Source: a virus
Reading direction: 5' to 3' (one strand)
Virus record (IMG/VR): IMGVR_UViG_3300048590_000302
Coordinates: 1-51,934 of that record
DNA length: 51,934 nucleotides
Part shown: positions 584 through 32,473 of the stretch, in pieces
How positions within the stretch are numbered: position 1 is the first letter of the stretch
Layout of the letters: the number at the start of each line of letters is the position of its first letter
Notes under the pieces: model-generated
Database searches by the model: none
The model's input: the letters and a program-made list of their open reading frames with translations, nothing else
Told to the model about the DNA's origin: nothing
Position numbers and translations under genes: made by a program

Positions 584-1360
584 ATGGCCCGTAAGAAGAC
601 TGCATCCCCGGAAGCCGCTCCTGCTCAGGACTTGGGCACGGGGGCCGCCGCGCAGCCCCGGTTTCAGATTGAGATCGCCCCGATGGATTCGATCGTCCCG
701 TATGCCCGCAACGCCAAGCTGCACACCGACGAGCAGATATCGGAGATCATGGCGAGCTTTCAGGAGTTTGGCTTTATCAACCCGCTCCTGCTCGACGCCA
801 AGGGGTCGATCGTCGCCGGGCATGGTCGTTTCAAGGCGGCTCAGCGCCTTGGTTATACCGAGGCTCCCGTGATTCGTCTCGGGCATCTTTCCCCGGCGCA
901 GGTCAAGGCGCTTCGCATTGCCGACAACCAGCTCGGTCTTAAGACGGGATGGAATGCCGACCTGCTTTCCCTGGAGCTGACGGAGATGGCCGACGACGGC
1001 TACAACATGGAGCTGCTGGGGTTTGGCGATCAGATTGACGAGTGGCTGACGGCCTCGGCGGATCCGGCGCCATCGGATGATGATGGTTCCGAGGGCGGGG
1101 GCGCCCCGGCAGGTGGGGTTTCGTCGTCGTCGTCGGAATCTTCGGATGATCTTATTCGCGGCGATGTCGAGCGGATTGTGCTGCTCGTGGACAAGAAGGA
1201 CTTTATCAAGGCGGCGCAGGTCATCACCGAGATCAAGGAATCGGAGGGACTGGAGAACGTCACGGAGGTTTTTCTTCACCTGCTGATGGAGTGGAATCGT
1301 CTTCATGGGAGCAAGCGCCCGTCGCCCATTCCCGAGGGAAGCAGCGATGCGGCACATTGA
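584..1360 (+). CDS. ParB/Srx-fold domain protein, likely DNA-targeting partner of the base modification enzymes
   Basis: The start at ATG 584 follows GGAGG with spacing 8 and is preferred over an upstream in-frame ATG at 512. The 258-residue protein has a ParB-type nuclease-like domain at about residues 28-155, with the AGHGRFKAAQRLG core at 78-90 and IADNQLGL at 112-119. This is the same domain that precedes the methylase in many prophage ParB-methyltransferase fusions. Here no methylase follows. Instead there is an acidic and serine-rich linker (156-188) and an unrecognised helical domain (189-243). It overlaps the dioxygenase start by 14 bases. By inference it locates DNA sites for modification; a packaging or partition role is also possible. 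Confidence 0.75.
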   Translation: MARKKTASPEAAPAQDLGTGAAAQPRFQIEIAPMDSIVPYARNAKLHTDEQISEIMASFQEFGFINPLLLDAKGSIVAGHGRFKAAQRLGYTEAPVIRLGHLSPAQVKALRIADNQLGLKTGWNADLLSLELTEMADDGYNMELLGFGDQIDEWLTASADPAPSDDDGSEGGGAPAGGVSSSSSESSDDLIRGDVERIVLLVDKKDFIKAAQVITEIKESEGLENVTEVFLHLLMEWNRLHGSKRPSPIPEGSSDAAH

Positions 1361-2237
1361 GGTCGAGCGTTTGATTGAGGTTCCGAAGTCGCGCATCGGA
1401 GATGCACCGAAGGAATCCGATGCAAGTATTTACGTGCGGGAGCCGACTGTCATTACGCACCTCGGCCAGCCGATTGCGCTCTATGGGGATATTTCCGACT
1501 TCGACTTTCGACAGTTACTATCCTGGTGCAAGCGTGCAAGATTTGGCCTGTTCCGTCGCATGGCGGTCCAGCAAGGCAAGGAATGGTCCCTGCCGAAGTC
1601 CCTCGAACTTTTCTGGGGGTATACCACTGGAAGGCACGTCTATACGGCTCCTCCGGGCGTCACTCGCACGACCAAGGACGATCCCGACATTTACCGGGAG
1701 TCGATCATCCCGCTCTATCATCGACTGCGGCGGGAGTTTGAACTGCACATGCCTGCGCAGTACGTCTCGCAGTTTGAGCGGCTAACTTCTCAGATCCGTC
1801 CTGACTGGCGAATTGATGGCGGCATGTATACGCAGGTCGTATGCAACAAGGGGAATGTATGGAGTTACCATCTCGATCAGTCCAATTTCCGTGATTCCTG
1901 GTCTTCCATGGGAGTGTTCAGCCGTGGGTGTGTTGGCGGCAACACTATCATCCCTGCTCTGGATATGCGATTTGCCATGCAGGGGCAGCGGTTCCTCATC
2001 TTTGAAGGGGCGCGACTCATCCACGGCGTCACACCGCTGACGAAGGTCAAGGCGGATGCCTACCGATATTCATTCGTTTACTATGCGCACGAACAGATGG
2101 CGAAGATGGACACGCTGGAGGTGGAGCTGCGGAAGTTTCGCCGGTCGCTCGACAAGCGCTTCGATGCTGATTATCAGGCGACGCGCGATGCCAACGTGCA
2201 GAAGTTTCGCCGCAAGATGAGGAAGAGCGGACTATGA
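1347..2237 (+). CDS. TET/JBP-like 2-oxoglutarate- and Fe(II)-dependent dioxygenase (putative 5-methylpyrimidine hydroxylase)
   Basis: Enzymes of this family oxidise the 5-methyl group of thymine or 5-methylcytosine in DNA. ATG 1347 sits behind GAGGGA; the open frame upstream is the tail of the preceding gene. In the 296-residue product the iron ligands are readable as H175-x-D177 (in YHLDQSN) and H226 (in LIHGVTP), with the oxoglutarate-binding arginine at R240. The glycine-rich stretch at about 194-199 and the strand order fit a double-stranded beta-helix. A basic C-terminal tail (residues 262-294) may contact DNA. Its neighbours (ParB-like, glycosyltransferase, terminase) match published phage TET/JBP neighbourhoods. 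The motif alone would fit other 2OG oxygenases, so the subfamily rests partly on context. Confidence 0.75.
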   Translation: MRHIEVERLIEVPKSRIGDAPKESDASIYVREPTVITHLGQPIALYGDISDFDFRQLLSWCKRARFGLFRRMAVQQGKEWSLPKSLELFWGYTTGRHVYTAPPGVTRTTKDDPDIYRESIIPLYHRLRREFELHMPAQYVSQFERLTSQIRPDWRIDGGMYTQVVCNKGNVWSYHLDQSNFRDSWSSMGVFSRGCVGGNTIIPALDMRFAMQGQRFLIFEGARLIHGVTPLTKVKADAYRYSFVYYAHEQMAKMDTLEVELRKFRRSLDKRFDADYQATRDANVQKFRRKMRKSGL

Positions 2238-3082
2238 ATCTATACTCGCATCCCCTGGTTGCCATTCCCTCGCATCGTCGCGCGGCGGGCCTGCTGGAGC
2301 ACACGCTGGCCTTTCTTCGGCGGATGGGCTTTCCCCTCTCGCGGGTCTTCGTCTTCGTCTCGGACGCGGATGATCTTAAGGACTACAAGGCGGCGATCCC
2401 GGATGCCGATGGGCTGCACCTCGTTTTTGCAAAAAAAGCCTCCTCGCTCCGCTCGAAGTTCAACTTCATTCGGCGGTACTTCGCGCGGGGGCAGCGCGTG
2501 TTTCTCCTCGAAGACGACGTGATGAGCCTCGTCGAGAAGATGGGCGAGAACTCCGTGCGCGAGTGTGCAGACTTCGAGGCATTTCTTCGCGAGGGCTTCG
2601 ACCTCATGGAGTCGGTTGGTGCCCGCATCTGGGGGGTTTCCCCGCACGCCAACGCCTTCTACATGACGAACAACAATTCGATCAACTTCAAGTTTATCGT
2701 GGCTCAGGCATTTGGATTCGTCGCCGACGACGACGCGCGTCTCGACATCACGCTCGACGGGAAGAGCGACTATGAGCGGACGATTCTCTACTATTTAGCC
2801 GACGGGAGGACGCCGCGGCTGAATCGGTTCGGGGTGAAGCCGTTTGCCAGCTACAAGGGCGAGGGTGGACTTCAGGCGGAGTTTGACCATCGGACGCGGG
2901 TTTATAAGGAGGAGCAGGCCGTCTCCTATCTCACGAGCCGGTATTCGCTCCTGTGCTACCGCAACGAGGGGAAGAAGAGCGTGATGCCGGAGATCAAGTT
3001 TCGTCCGATCAAGGGCAGTCACAAGGCGGTCGTGGCCGCGCAGGCCGCTCGTGACAAGGAACTCGGTTATGGTAAGAACTAA
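2234..3082 (+). CDS. GT-A fold glycosyltransferase, candidate DNA base glycosyltransferase
   Basis: The 282-residue protein opens with a Rossmann-like strand and basic turn (LVAIPSHRRAAG, residues 8-19). It has an acidic cluster EDD at 93-95 (VFLLEDDVMSL), in the position of the metal and sugar-nucleotide DxD motif. It starts four bases before the dioxygenase stop (ATGA overlap), implying coupled translation. The family that fits best is the TET/JBP-associated glycosyltransferases, relatives of the kinetoplastid base J transferase, which add a sugar to hydroxymethyl bases. The sugar is unknown. A capsule-type transferase is the alternative, but the coupling to the dioxygenase argues for DNA as acceptor. 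Confidence 0.65.
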   Translation: MNLYSHPLVAIPSHRRAAGLLEHTLAFLRRMGFPLSRVFVFVSDADDLKDYKAAIPDADGLHLVFAKKASSLRSKFNFIRRYFARGQRVFLLEDDVMSLVEKMGENSVRECADFEAFLREGFDLMESVGARIWGVSPHANAFYMTNNNSINFKFIVAQAFGFVADDDARLDITLDGKSDYERTILYYLADGRTPRLNRFGVKPFASYKGEGGLQAEFDHRTRVYKEEQAVSYLTSRYSLLCYRNEGKKSVMPEIKFRPIKGSHKAVVAAQAARDKELGYGKN

Positions 3083-3881
3083 TGACGGGGGGATTTCCGG
3101 CGCATGGTTCGAGCGCGATGGCGGGATGCTGACCAAGCATTGTGCGAATGCCCGCGAGCAGGTGGGGCAGCTCGTTTCCATGCCATCGTATATGACCGCA
3201 CCGACGATCGTCCGCGTGGGGAGCGATCGGTATACGATGCGGTTTATTGATGGCAGTTCACTTCTCGAACTCTGCACGAAGCGTCGTCTTGTGGCAACGT
3301 ATTTCGTGCAGCAACTGCTTACGATCATTGATCAGAATCGTCGTCAGTCGATGCTGGTTGAGATGGAGCACTTTACGCGCAAGGTGAGGTCGATTGCGTT
3401 TCAATCGCCGACCCTTCCGCGCCCGCTTCGCGGGACTCTCTGGCTCTCGTGGCAGTCGATTCTTGACATGATGCCCGATGAGATTCTGCTGCCGATGGGG
3501 TTTGCGCATGGGGATCTTACGCCCGAGAACATCATCATCGACCAGCGGATGACGCCGCACTTTATTGATGCGATTCCCTCGCCTGTCTCCACCATTCTTC
3601 AGGACGTGAGCAAGCTTCGTCAGGAGTTTCTTTATGGATGGTCGTCTGTTCGTCACGGTCTTGATTACGATCGCCGTCACTATCAGGGGATTGTTGACGG
3701 GAGATTTCCCACGACGCGGGAACTTCTCACGCTGGACTTCGTTACGATTGCACGGATAGCCCCTTATGCGGGTGCCAATGAGAGGATTTCCGAATGGATT
3801 ACGCAGCGTCTCTGCCAGATCTTGTCGTGCTATGCGCAGGCACTTCCGACCGCTACGGTGGACGCCCCAAGGCTCTCCTGA
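3069..3881 (+). CDS. APH/choline-kinase-fold small-molecule kinase
   Basis: This is a 270-residue kinase-like protein. The catalytic loop is explicit: HGDLTPENIII at residues 147-157 (H147, D149, N154). A metal-binding aspartate follows at D167 (HFIDAI), and D179 sits in the downstream QDVSKL motif typical of aminoglycoside phosphotransferase-fold enzymes. A GTG at 3051 is in frame, but ATG 3069 has AAGGAA at spacing 7. It overlaps the transferase by 14 bases and the next gene by 88. Such kinases phosphorylate sugars, choline or amino alcohols. With the adjoining nucleotidyltransferase it probably makes an NDP-activated donor; direct phosphorylation of the hydroxylated base is less likely but possible. 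Confidence 0.7.
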   Translation: MVRTNDGGISGAWFERDGGMLTKHCANAREQVGQLVSMPSYMTAPTIVRVGSDRYTMRFIDGSSLLELCTKRRLVATYFVQQLLTIIDQNRRQSMLVEMEHFTRKVRSIAFQSPTLPRPLRGTLWLSWQSILDMMPDEILLPMGFAHGDLTPENIIIDQRMTPHFIDAIPSPVSTILQDVSKLRQEFLYGWSSVRHGLDYDRRHYQGIVDGRFPTTRELLTLDFVTIARIAPYAGANERISEWITQRLCQILSCYAQALPTATVDAPRLS

Positions 3882-4852
3882 CCCATCCGTCCGGGTTTAT
3901 CATGGCTGTGGAATCGGTGCGTGGGCTTTATGGGTATGGTCGTCTTCATGTGGTGGTTCGCCATCTGTCGCATGTGGATGTGGTTCGTCGTGAATTTCTC
4001 GCTGGTGGTCTTGGCCTGACCGAGGTCAATGTCGTCGTCGTCGGTGAGACGTCCTCTCCTCTTGAGTCGGCACGGCGATTTGTACGGTTGTCTGGTATTC
4101 GCGGTCCTGTGGCCTTCAAGGATTGTGACAATCATTTTCGCATGCGGGTAACTCCTGGTGACTACGCTGCGGTGGTCTACATGCCTGAGCAGGCATCGTT
4201 TGTACGGCGTGACAACAAGAGCTACTGCTCATACTCGGGCTTCTCGCGCAAGCCTTCGGACTGGGCGTGTGCCGGTCTTTACTCGTTCTCGGAGGCTCAG
4301 GATCTTCTGGAGCTGTCGGGGGAGTGGACGGACTTTTGGCAGGTGATGCCTACGACTGCGGTCCATGACGTGGAGCATTATCTTGATTGGGGAACGCGGG
4401 AGGATTGGGTTAGGTTTCGTCGGCGGTATGGGACGGTGTTCGTGGACATCGACGGCGTCCTTGTTCGCAATGGGTCGAGGTCGTTTGCTGACCGGCTTTG
4501 GGGTGATACGGCAGTGATTGCCGGGTCGATCAGGAGGGTCAACGCGCTTTACCATTCCGGTCGGTGGCATGTGGTGCTGGTGACTTCGCGTCCCGAGGAG
4601 GTGCGGCGGGAGACCGTTTCGCAACTGGCGGAATTGTCGTATCATCGTCTAATGATGGGACTTCCAGCCGCCCATCGCATCCTGATTGGCGACGATGATA
4701 GTTTCGGGTCCATGGTCCATGCCGTGCGAATGACGAGGGACGAACCCGACTGGAGACATTTCAACGACATCACCGGAGACTTCCCCGATGACAGATCAAC
4801 CGAAGAAGAAGATGGGCCAGCCGACGAAGTATCGGAAGGCGATTTGCGATGA
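3794..4852 (+). CDS. Nucleotidyltransferase-HAD phosphatase fusion (NDP-activated donor synthesis)
   Basis: Two catalytic domains are readable in 352 residues. Residues 9-29 carry a sugar or choline-phosphate nucleotidyltransferase signature (LCAGTSDRYGGRPKALL), with the metal-binding DCDN at 110-113. Residues 212-305 are a HAD phosphatase: DxDG at 218-221, Thr-Ser at 264-265 and the DDD motif at 300-302. The fusion follows the kinase directly and overlaps it by 88 bases. Kinase, nucleotidyltransferase and phosphatase together resemble pathways that make NDP-heptoses or CDP-aminoalcohols. By inference the set supplies the group transferred to DNA by the upstream transferase. The acidic tail overlaps terS. 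Confidence 0.7.
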   Translation: MDYAASLPDLVVLCAGTSDRYGGRPKALLTHPSGFIMAVESVRGLYGYGRLHVVVRHLSHVDVVRREFLAGGLGLTEVNVVVVGETSSPLESARRFVRLSGIRGPVAFKDCDNHFRMRVTPGDYAAVVYMPEQASFVRRDNKSYCSYSGFSRKPSDWACAGLYSFSEAQDLLELSGEWTDFWQVMPTTAVHDVEHYLDWGTREDWVRFRRRYGTVFVDIDGVLVRNGSRSFADRLWGDTAVIAGSIRRVNALYHSGRWHVVLVTSRPEEVRRETVSQLAELSYHRLMMGLPAAHRILIGDDDSFGSMVHAVRMTRDEPDWRHFNDITGDFPDDRSTEEEDGPADEVSEGDLR

Positions 4853-5288
4853 GATCGTTGAGTTCATGGCTACGGGGCGTTCGATCTCGGCGTTTGCCGC
4901 TGAGAAGAAGCTGTCGCGCGACATTCTCTATCGGTGGTGTGAGCGCTACCCGGAGTTTGCTGATGCGATGGCAGCAGGCAAGGAGGCGTCCCAGCGCTGG
5001 TGGGAGGCTTTGGCCATGGCTGTGGCGAGCGGTTCGGCTGCCGGACACAAGACGTATAAGAATGCCAACTCGGGGATGGTGATGTTTATGATGAGTCGTC
5101 GCTTCCCCGACTACTACAAGAAGTCCGACGGCGGACCAATCGAAGGCGAGGGCAATGGCACAACGGACGACAACGTCAACGAAGAGGAACTTTCCAACGA
5201 GATCGACCGCCTCATCGCGCTCCGCGATCGACTCCGATCGTCTAAAAAGACTGCTGATGCGCGAGATCGCGGACGAGGCAAGAAGTGA
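4788..5288 (+). CDS. Terminase small subunit
   Basis: The 166-residue protein has an N-terminal helix-turn-helix region (about residues 14-55, KLSRDILYRWCERYPEFADA) typical of small terminase subunits that bind the packaging site. A charged tail follows. It overlaps the upstream fusion gene by 65 bases and terL by 32 bases, as usual for a terS-terL pair. It would select viral DNA and stimulate the large subunit. Confidence 0.8.
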   Translation: MTDQPKKKMGQPTKYRKAICDEIVEFMATGRSISAFAAEKKLSRDILYRWCERYPEFADAMAAGKEASQRWWEALAMAVASGSAAGHKTYKNANSGMVMFMMSRRFPDYYKKSDGGPIEGEGNGTTDDNVNEEELSNEIDRLIALRDRLRSSKKTADARDRGRGKK

Positions 5289-31805: not shown

Positions 31806-32255
31806 TCAGGCTTCCGGTGGGCATTCGCTGCCGCTTCCCTCCGGTGGCTTTGGCTGATCCCACCAGGGCTTGAAGCGTTCGATTTCATCGACGGTGGGCA
31901 TCGTCCCGGTGAAGAGAATTGCGCGATCGTCGATCGTGAGAAAGGCCGGTGGCTTCTCCGCAGCGATCGACACGCAGCCCGATATGCCCCACTCTTCGAG
32001 GGCTTTCGCCACGGCCTCACGCCCTTCGTCGGTCGAGGCTCGCGACGTGTGGACGACGATTTGATAGTGTGAGGCGTGGATTCTTATCCATTCGATTGTT
32101 GCCTTAACTGGACCGCCGTCGATGACGGTGGGTCCTTTCCATCGCCGGTAATTGTGAATCACGCCGTCGAAGTCGAGGCATATCAGTTTTCTCATCATTC
32201 CGTTCTCGCGCCTTTTCTTTGGGGCCTTCGTTGTCAGGCCGAGGATTACGGTCAT
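31806..32255 (-). CDS. HAD-superfamily phosphatase
   Basis: Motif I is clear (LDFDGVIHNY, with the nucleophile D and the acid D two residues later). Motif II lies in HTSRAS and the acidic motif IV in LTIDDRA. The 149-residue protein is the size of small phage HAD hydrolases resembling polynucleotide 3-prime phosphatases. The start at 32255 (AAGGAG at spacing 4) is chosen over a later MM pair with a weak site. Confidence 0.78.
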   Translation of the reverse strand: MTVILGLTTKAPKKRRENGMMRKLICLDFDGVIHNYRRWKGPTVIDGGPVKATIEWIRIHASHYQIVVHTSRASTDEGREAVAKALEEWGISGCVSIAAEKPPAFLTIDDRAILFTGTMPTVDEIERFKPWWDQPKPPEGSGSECPPEA

Positions 32256-32473
32256 AGCTCCTTCCTTCCGCTGTCGAACTCCTGCTTTGATATCTGCTTC
32301 CACCATGTAATTACGATGTCCTCTGCCGATGGTCGGAAGAATTCGTTTCTGATGTTCTTCAGAATCGCTTCCTTGGCCTTGGCAATGTGAAAGTAGTCCA
32401 CATTCGACGAGAAGCAGCAGTCGCCTATGTCAATTCCTGGAGCCTTGTAGTTGACGAACCAGTAGGTTTCCAT
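32252..32473 (-). CDS. Hypothetical early protein
   Basis: The 73-residue protein overlaps its downstream neighbour by four bases and directly abuts the upstream gene (TGAATG). It has aromatic and cysteine residues near the N-terminus (GDCC) and a helical second half. No domain is recognised. Confidence 0.65.
   Translation of the reverse strand: METYWFVNYKAPGIDIGDCCFSSNVDYFHIAKAKEAILKNIRNEFFRPSAEDIVITWWKQISKQEFDSGRKEL

Follow-up and report, generated by a model that had tools for sequence, protein, structure and literature searches.

Why should a phage carry a kinase, a nucleotidyltransferase and a phosphatase directly behind genes predicted to oxidise and glycosylate DNA? The question is raised by a five-gene island at 584-4852 on the + strand of a 51,934-base viral record (IMGVR_UViG_3300048590_000302; GC 0.546), the whole of which we call the window. 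An earlier note, made from the letters alone, had described five overlapping rightward genes ahead of terminase, and all of these open reading frames are present as claimed. They form a single tight co-directional run in which every gene overlaps its downstream neighbour, the last one overlapping the small terminase gene. The profile matches are significant and 31 further viral contigs have the same set, so the island is not a chance assembly. We think it probable that its enzymes equip the phage’s own DNA with a glycosylated hydroxymethyl-pyrimidine and supply the sugar donor as well.

The first gene (584..1360) encodes a ParB/Srx-fold protein (Pfam ParB_N, E 9e-6; PHROG 15396/620, E ~1e-46). 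Its N-terminal half is ~49% identical, by tblastn, to ParB domains of other phages’ proteins annotated ‘DNA modification methylase’, and the protein is likely to be the DNA-targeting partner of the island. The second gene (1347..2237) encodes a TET/JBP-type Fe(II)/2-oxoglutarate dioxygenase. Its match to Tet_JBP (E 6e-8) falls slightly below the curated Pfam cut-off, at 32.5 bits against 34.9, and a five-sequence profile of the family finds human TET2 in the PDB at E 2.6e-4, with the Naegleria Tet-like dioxygenase ranking next but not significantly. The iron-binding residues H175-x-D177 and H226 and the 2-oxoglutarate-binding R240 are invariant in five divergent phage homologues. With profile and catalytic residues in agreement, the placement of this protein among TET/JBP enzymes holds, and the predicted enzyme probably hydroxylates the methyl group of a pyrimidine in DNA. 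Tet_JBP was the sole domain that Pfam found in the 310-amino-acid protein; J-binding and SNF2 domains were not detected. In many phage records, those of PHROG 6059 and of numerous gene 2 products of actinophages among them, TET/JBP-family proteins go under the name ‘queuine tRNA-ribosyltransferase’.

The third gene (2234..3082) encodes a TET-associated glycosyltransferase (TAGT) of the GT-A type. It scores 46.5 bits against the PF20691 cut-off of 27.5 (E 5.5e-12), and its acidic metal motif, EDD at 93-95, is invariant in 15/15 clade members; KSDYER lies at 177-182. A PDB sequence search with the TAGT gave no matches, and its assignment to this DNA-glycosyltransferase family stands on the Pfam score and the intact metal motif. 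The one precedent for sugar transfer to DNA by a TAGT comes from T6-like phages, in which it is credited with adding the second glucose to cytosines (PMC13390438).

The remaining two genes encode three activities, which we refer to as the triad. The fourth gene (3051..3881, with a GTG start) encodes an APH-fold small-molecule kinase, weak by sequence (APH, E 4e-4) but clear by structure: an AlphaFold2 model (pLDDT, the predicted local distance difference test, 85) aligned in VIA-align with APH(4)-Ia (Z 16.7), glucosamine kinase (15.7) and maltokinase (15.5). We propose that it is an anomeric sugar kinase, predicted to act at C1. The H, G, D and N of its HGDLTPEN motif are invariant in 39/39 sequences; this motif and the TET and TAGT residues named above all lie where the earlier note had placed them and are conserved. 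The fifth gene (3794-4852) is a fusion. Its nucleotidyltransferase domain (3794..4417, residues ~1-208; NTP_transf_3, E 0.003) has an NDP-sugar (nucleoside diphosphate sugar) pyrophosphorylase fold, and its family profile matches PDB 4evw at E 2e-10. The HAD phosphatase domain (4418..4852, residues ~209-352; HAD_PNKP, E 8e-4; HAD_SAK_2, E 0.003) matches Pnkp1 and 1xpj in profile searches of the PDB. The nucleotidyltransferase motif (G16, S18, R20, K26) and the HAD DxD (D218, D220) are invariant in 32/32, and T264-S265-R266 and D300 are further HAD motif residues. The triad genes are under strong constraint, the ratio of non-synonymous to synonymous change (dN/dS) being about 0.06-0.13 for pairs aligned in frame; TET rows and rows with saturated dS were discarded for implausible or saturated values and unconfirmed start frames.

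Does the triad belong with the TET and TAGT genes? An initial TAGT scan gave 47 viral loci, of which five had triad genes (L007, L008, L009, L032 and Synechococcus phage S-CBWM1); a scan with the TAGT subclade and a wider scan followed. Leaving aside the window and S-CBWM1, triad genes stand beside TAGT or TET genes in 31 viral contigs, of which some are near-identical. In at least 26 of the contigs profiles, BLAST or reading identified all three domains, while the remainder are without one of them through truncation, a contig end or real absence. There are at least four layouts. A kinase followed by a nucleotidyltransferase-HAD fusion is found in the window, L032, L136, L137 and L141, and a single nucleotidyltransferase-HAD-kinase protein in L009, L139, L140 and L169. 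A nucleotidyltransferase followed by a HAD-kinase fusion is found in L142-L147, L149-L157, L172, L174 and L178, with L148 retaining the HAD-kinase part, and three separate genes (HAD, nucleotidyltransferase, kinase) in S-CBWM1. L032 has all five genes in exactly the order of the window; elsewhere the order of TET, TAGT and ParB varies among triad loci. The varied fusions, with TET, TAGT and ParB shifting around them, argue strongly that kinase, nucleotidyltransferase and phosphatase work in a single pathway with TAGT and TET. In L007 the kinase gene (1420-2062), beside TET-TAGT-NT-HAD genes, has lost its HGD..N region by deletion or frameshift, through decay or assembly error.

The TAGT tree gives a more formal answer. 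Triad presence was mapped as a label onto 72 rows and compared with 500 label shuffles: the label changes 4 times against a shuffled mean of 21.0, and 0/500 shuffles were as low. One TAGT clade, with 99/100 support, has the triad in 23/24 rows, the sole exception being L013, on a long branch. The second scan targeted this TAGT subclade rather than the triad, and all five clade loci found after the models had been fixed (L169, L172, L174, L178 and L180) carry triad genes, although no kinase part was called for L180. The triad was absent from TAGT loci other than clade members and S-CBWM1. As the S-CBWM1 TAGT falls outside the clade, triad and TAGT were probably brought together at least twice. 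TAGT loci that lack the triad (L015, L027, L028, L036, L044) often have divergent TAGT paralogues in tandem, two to four per locus, which suggests stepwise sugar chains. When the window’s TET and NT-HAD proteins were used singly to scan viral contigs, no close relative was found, and queries built from alignments were required. No host-borne relative came out of two scans of bacterial genomes, but these used short exact peptide patterns and are weak evidence of absence.

How much of this is new? The earlier note had suggested a previously undescribed modification, which can hold for only part of the system: the donor module is unusual, but mycobacteriophages and Arthrobacter phages were already known to have the ParB-TET-TAGT core. 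Mycobacteriophage Rich has the three genes in the window’s order directly before terminase, followed by a glucosaminyl deacetylase and an adenylate-kinase-like gene where the window has its kinase and NT-HAD fusion. Arthrobacter phage Klevey has the same core with a PIG-L type deacetylase instead of the triad, and in Microbacterium phage Terij ParB and TET genes precede terminase. The TAGTs of the cluster B mycobacteriophages and Arthrobacter phages (Rich, Klevey) lie outside the triad clade. The closest cultured parallel is the cyanophage S-CBWM1, whose gp8-gp12 encode TET, TAGT, HAD, nucleotidyltransferase and APH kinase in one run; unlike the window it has three separate donor genes in another order, a divergent TAGT and no ParB found alongside. 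Its record does not recognise a modification island. S-CBWM1 gp8 (L002 3729-5165) is annotated as a ‘putative SNF2 DNA repair protein’, but towards its C terminus it is a TET/JBP dioxygenase in which the catalytic residues are present.

There is precedent for phages that encode their own sugar-donor pathway for DNA modification. The DNA of RB69 (Mosigvirus) is arabinosylated, and ORF053c/052c with the isomerase ORF055c have been proposed as donor makers (PMC6024577); a 2026 paper also proposes the RB69 sugar kinase and NTP-transferase as precursor makers (PMC13390438). Judged by domains and similarity, ORF053c is a nucleotidyltransferase, ORF052c an APH-kind kinase and ORF051c a HAD phosphatase; in a small test set, triad-family profiles match the RB69 kinase at E about 1e-13 and the HAD at about 5e-13. 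RB69 ORF051c (L135 709-1095) is annotated ‘phosphoheptose isomerase’ and reads as a HAD phosphatase beside the kinase and nucleotidyltransferase. Like the window, then, RB69 has adjacent genes for the three activities, in a phage whose DNA is proven to be sugar-modified; unlike the window, it has an arabinose-5-phosphate isomerase, makes its modified base at the nucleotide level and has no known TET/TAGT pair. Shewanella phage Thanatos, with pentose-modified cytosine, has an ORF053_052c homologue and a separate UDP-xylose pyrophosphorylase (PMC12838424). In the AmgK/MurU/MupP salvage route an APH kinase, a nucleotidyltransferase and a HAD phosphatase turn a 6-phospho sugar into an NDP-sugar (PMC5371407), the same three activities as the triad, with the likeness confined to logic and fold. 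The several fusion combinations, the clade-wide TAGT linkage and the RB69 precedent together bear out the earlier suggestion that kinase, nucleotidyltransferase and phosphatase are a donor-making unit. We provisionally found no such pathway combined with TET and TAGT in the literature; a full-text search for a combined TET and aminoglycoside-phosphotransferase system, which did not cover Iyer 2013 or Burke 2021, returned antibiotic-resistance papers only.

We infer the following order of reactions. The HAD domain would strip the phosphate from a host sugar phosphate, the APH-fold kinase would re-phosphorylate the free sugar at C1, and the nucleotidyltransferase would join the sugar-1-phosphate to a nucleotide to give an NDP-sugar. 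The TET/JBP enzyme, possibly positioned by the ParB-like protein, would hydroxylate the methyl group of a pyrimidine once the DNA has been replicated, with thymine a likelier substrate than 5-methylcytosine, and TAGT would then move the sugar onto the hydroxymethyl group before packaging. The modification would probably shield phage DNA from bacterial DNA-cutting defences. The scheme resembles base J of kinetoplastids (JBP and a glucosyltransferase), in which pyrimidine-methyl hydroxylation is followed by glycosylation. Base J is made with the cell’s own UDP-glucose, whereas the window phage has its own donor enzymes, and its TET lacks detectable J-binding or SNF2 domains.

Which base is modified decides how far the likeness to base J, claimed in the earlier note, can be taken. 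Neither the window nor any of 17 triad records yielded a C5-methylase family, which favours thymine, as in base J; a C5-methylase is present in 2/13 TAGT records without the triad. A search of the window for thymidylate synthase was negative. The alternative is that host-made 5-methylcytosine is oxidised to 5-hydroxymethylcytosine and then glycosylated. The TET profile does match TET2, and characterised phage TETs, in the part of Burke 2021 relayed by PMC12730594, act on 5-methylcytosine with phage C5-methyltransferases. Dependence on host methylation would, though, leave few modified sites, and with no C5-methylase in the window or the 17 relatives we consider the cytosine version possible but doubtful. 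Thymine seems appreciably the better candidate from the gene content, which makes a product like base J the more probable one. As to the sugar, no SIS isomerase domain was found in the 17 triad records, so the host pool may supply the sugar phosphate directly; ribose or another pentose would be an economical choice, though this is no more than a guess.

Other roles for the triad have to be set against donor synthesis for TAGT. It might make a non-sugar activated group, a CDP-alkanol (cytidine diphosphate-alkanol) of the LicA/LicC kind, to decorate the base or a base-linked sugar while TAGT takes a host NDP-sugar. The kinase model does match the choline kinase LicA (Z 14.7), and the nucleotidyltransferase model matches inositol-1-phosphate cytidylyltransferase, one of the CTP-dependent cytidylyltransferases (Z 17.9), yet the best structural match of the latter is 4evw (Z 18.9), annotated as an NDP-sugar pyrophosphorylase, RB69 combines the same activities with a sugar isomerase, and the triad tracks a TAGT clade; this role is rather unlikely. 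Service to surface or virion glycans, with the triad a mere neighbour of the DNA-modification genes, is improbable: homologous kinase and NT-HAD pairs do occur in glycan-like clusters of marine phages, but the TET/TAGT linkage is retained across divergent phages and four layouts, the triad is absent from other TAGT loci (S-CBWM1 excepted), and the window genes scanned included no others recognisable as surface-glycan genes. There is very little to be expected from a scheme in which the three enzymes phosphorylate, nucleotidylate and trim a DNA-bound hydroxymethyl base rather than a free sugar. Phage 5-hydroxymethyluracil DNA kinases exist in other hypermodification routes and the HAD domain resembles the PNKP phosphatase, but the kinase has the APH fold of small-molecule kinases rather than that of a P-loop DNA kinase, and the nucleotidyltransferase is of the sugar-nucleotide type.

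Several observations weigh against a dedicated DNA-sugar donor pathway. L008 and L138 have a nucleotidyltransferase and kinase with no HAD detected, and the L007 kinase is without its catalytic motif; most records are possibly incomplete. A host C5-methylase could supply 5-methylcytosine. Unlike RB69, the 17 triad records have no recognised SIS domain (the window was checked through its larger genes by Pfam only), and the RB69 nucleotidyltransferase resembles the window’s at the family level only. Similar pairs of kinase and NT-HAD genes are also present in marine phage contigs that gave no TET, TAGT or ParB matches, at 69/80 loci with the pair adjacent, and within a surface-glycan-like cluster (L003). 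Because many marine phages have the pair without TET/TAGT, sometimes among glycan-like genes, the triad has no exclusive tie to DNA modification: it is a reusable donor cassette and not a DNA-specific invention.

TET-based phage modification and TAGT were known. With a TAGT clade that has a donor pathway of its own, the question of which sugars TAGTs transfer can be approached one enzyme at a time; the clade also suggests new DNA nucleosides, and S-CBWM1 is an isolated, culturable phage in which the product is measurable. The chances seem evenly balanced that the island represents a widespread, so far unrecognised class of phage hypermodification, with thymine hydroxylated in place, a sugar outside the host’s usual NDP-sugar pool and an NDP-donor made wholly by a dedicated phage module. 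The triad also supports the donor-pathway reading of the RB69 HAD, kinase and nucleotidyltransferase genes, and the analysis corrects several misleading annotations.

The island is followed by the small terminase gene (4788..5288, + strand; Sf6_terminase, E 2e-7), which is outside the proposed pathway, and then by large terminase, portal and head genes. Counts of promoter- and terminator-like patterns in the island region were not above shuffled expectation. A second, separate HAD phosphatase gene, phrog_23773/phrog_1238-like, lies far from the island at 31806-32306 on the - strand. The contig ends (1-44 and 51891-51934) are ~44-base sequences that are, by eye, ~80% alike in the same orientation. 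This degenerate repeat is possibly the reason for the contig break there, or a hint of a circular map.

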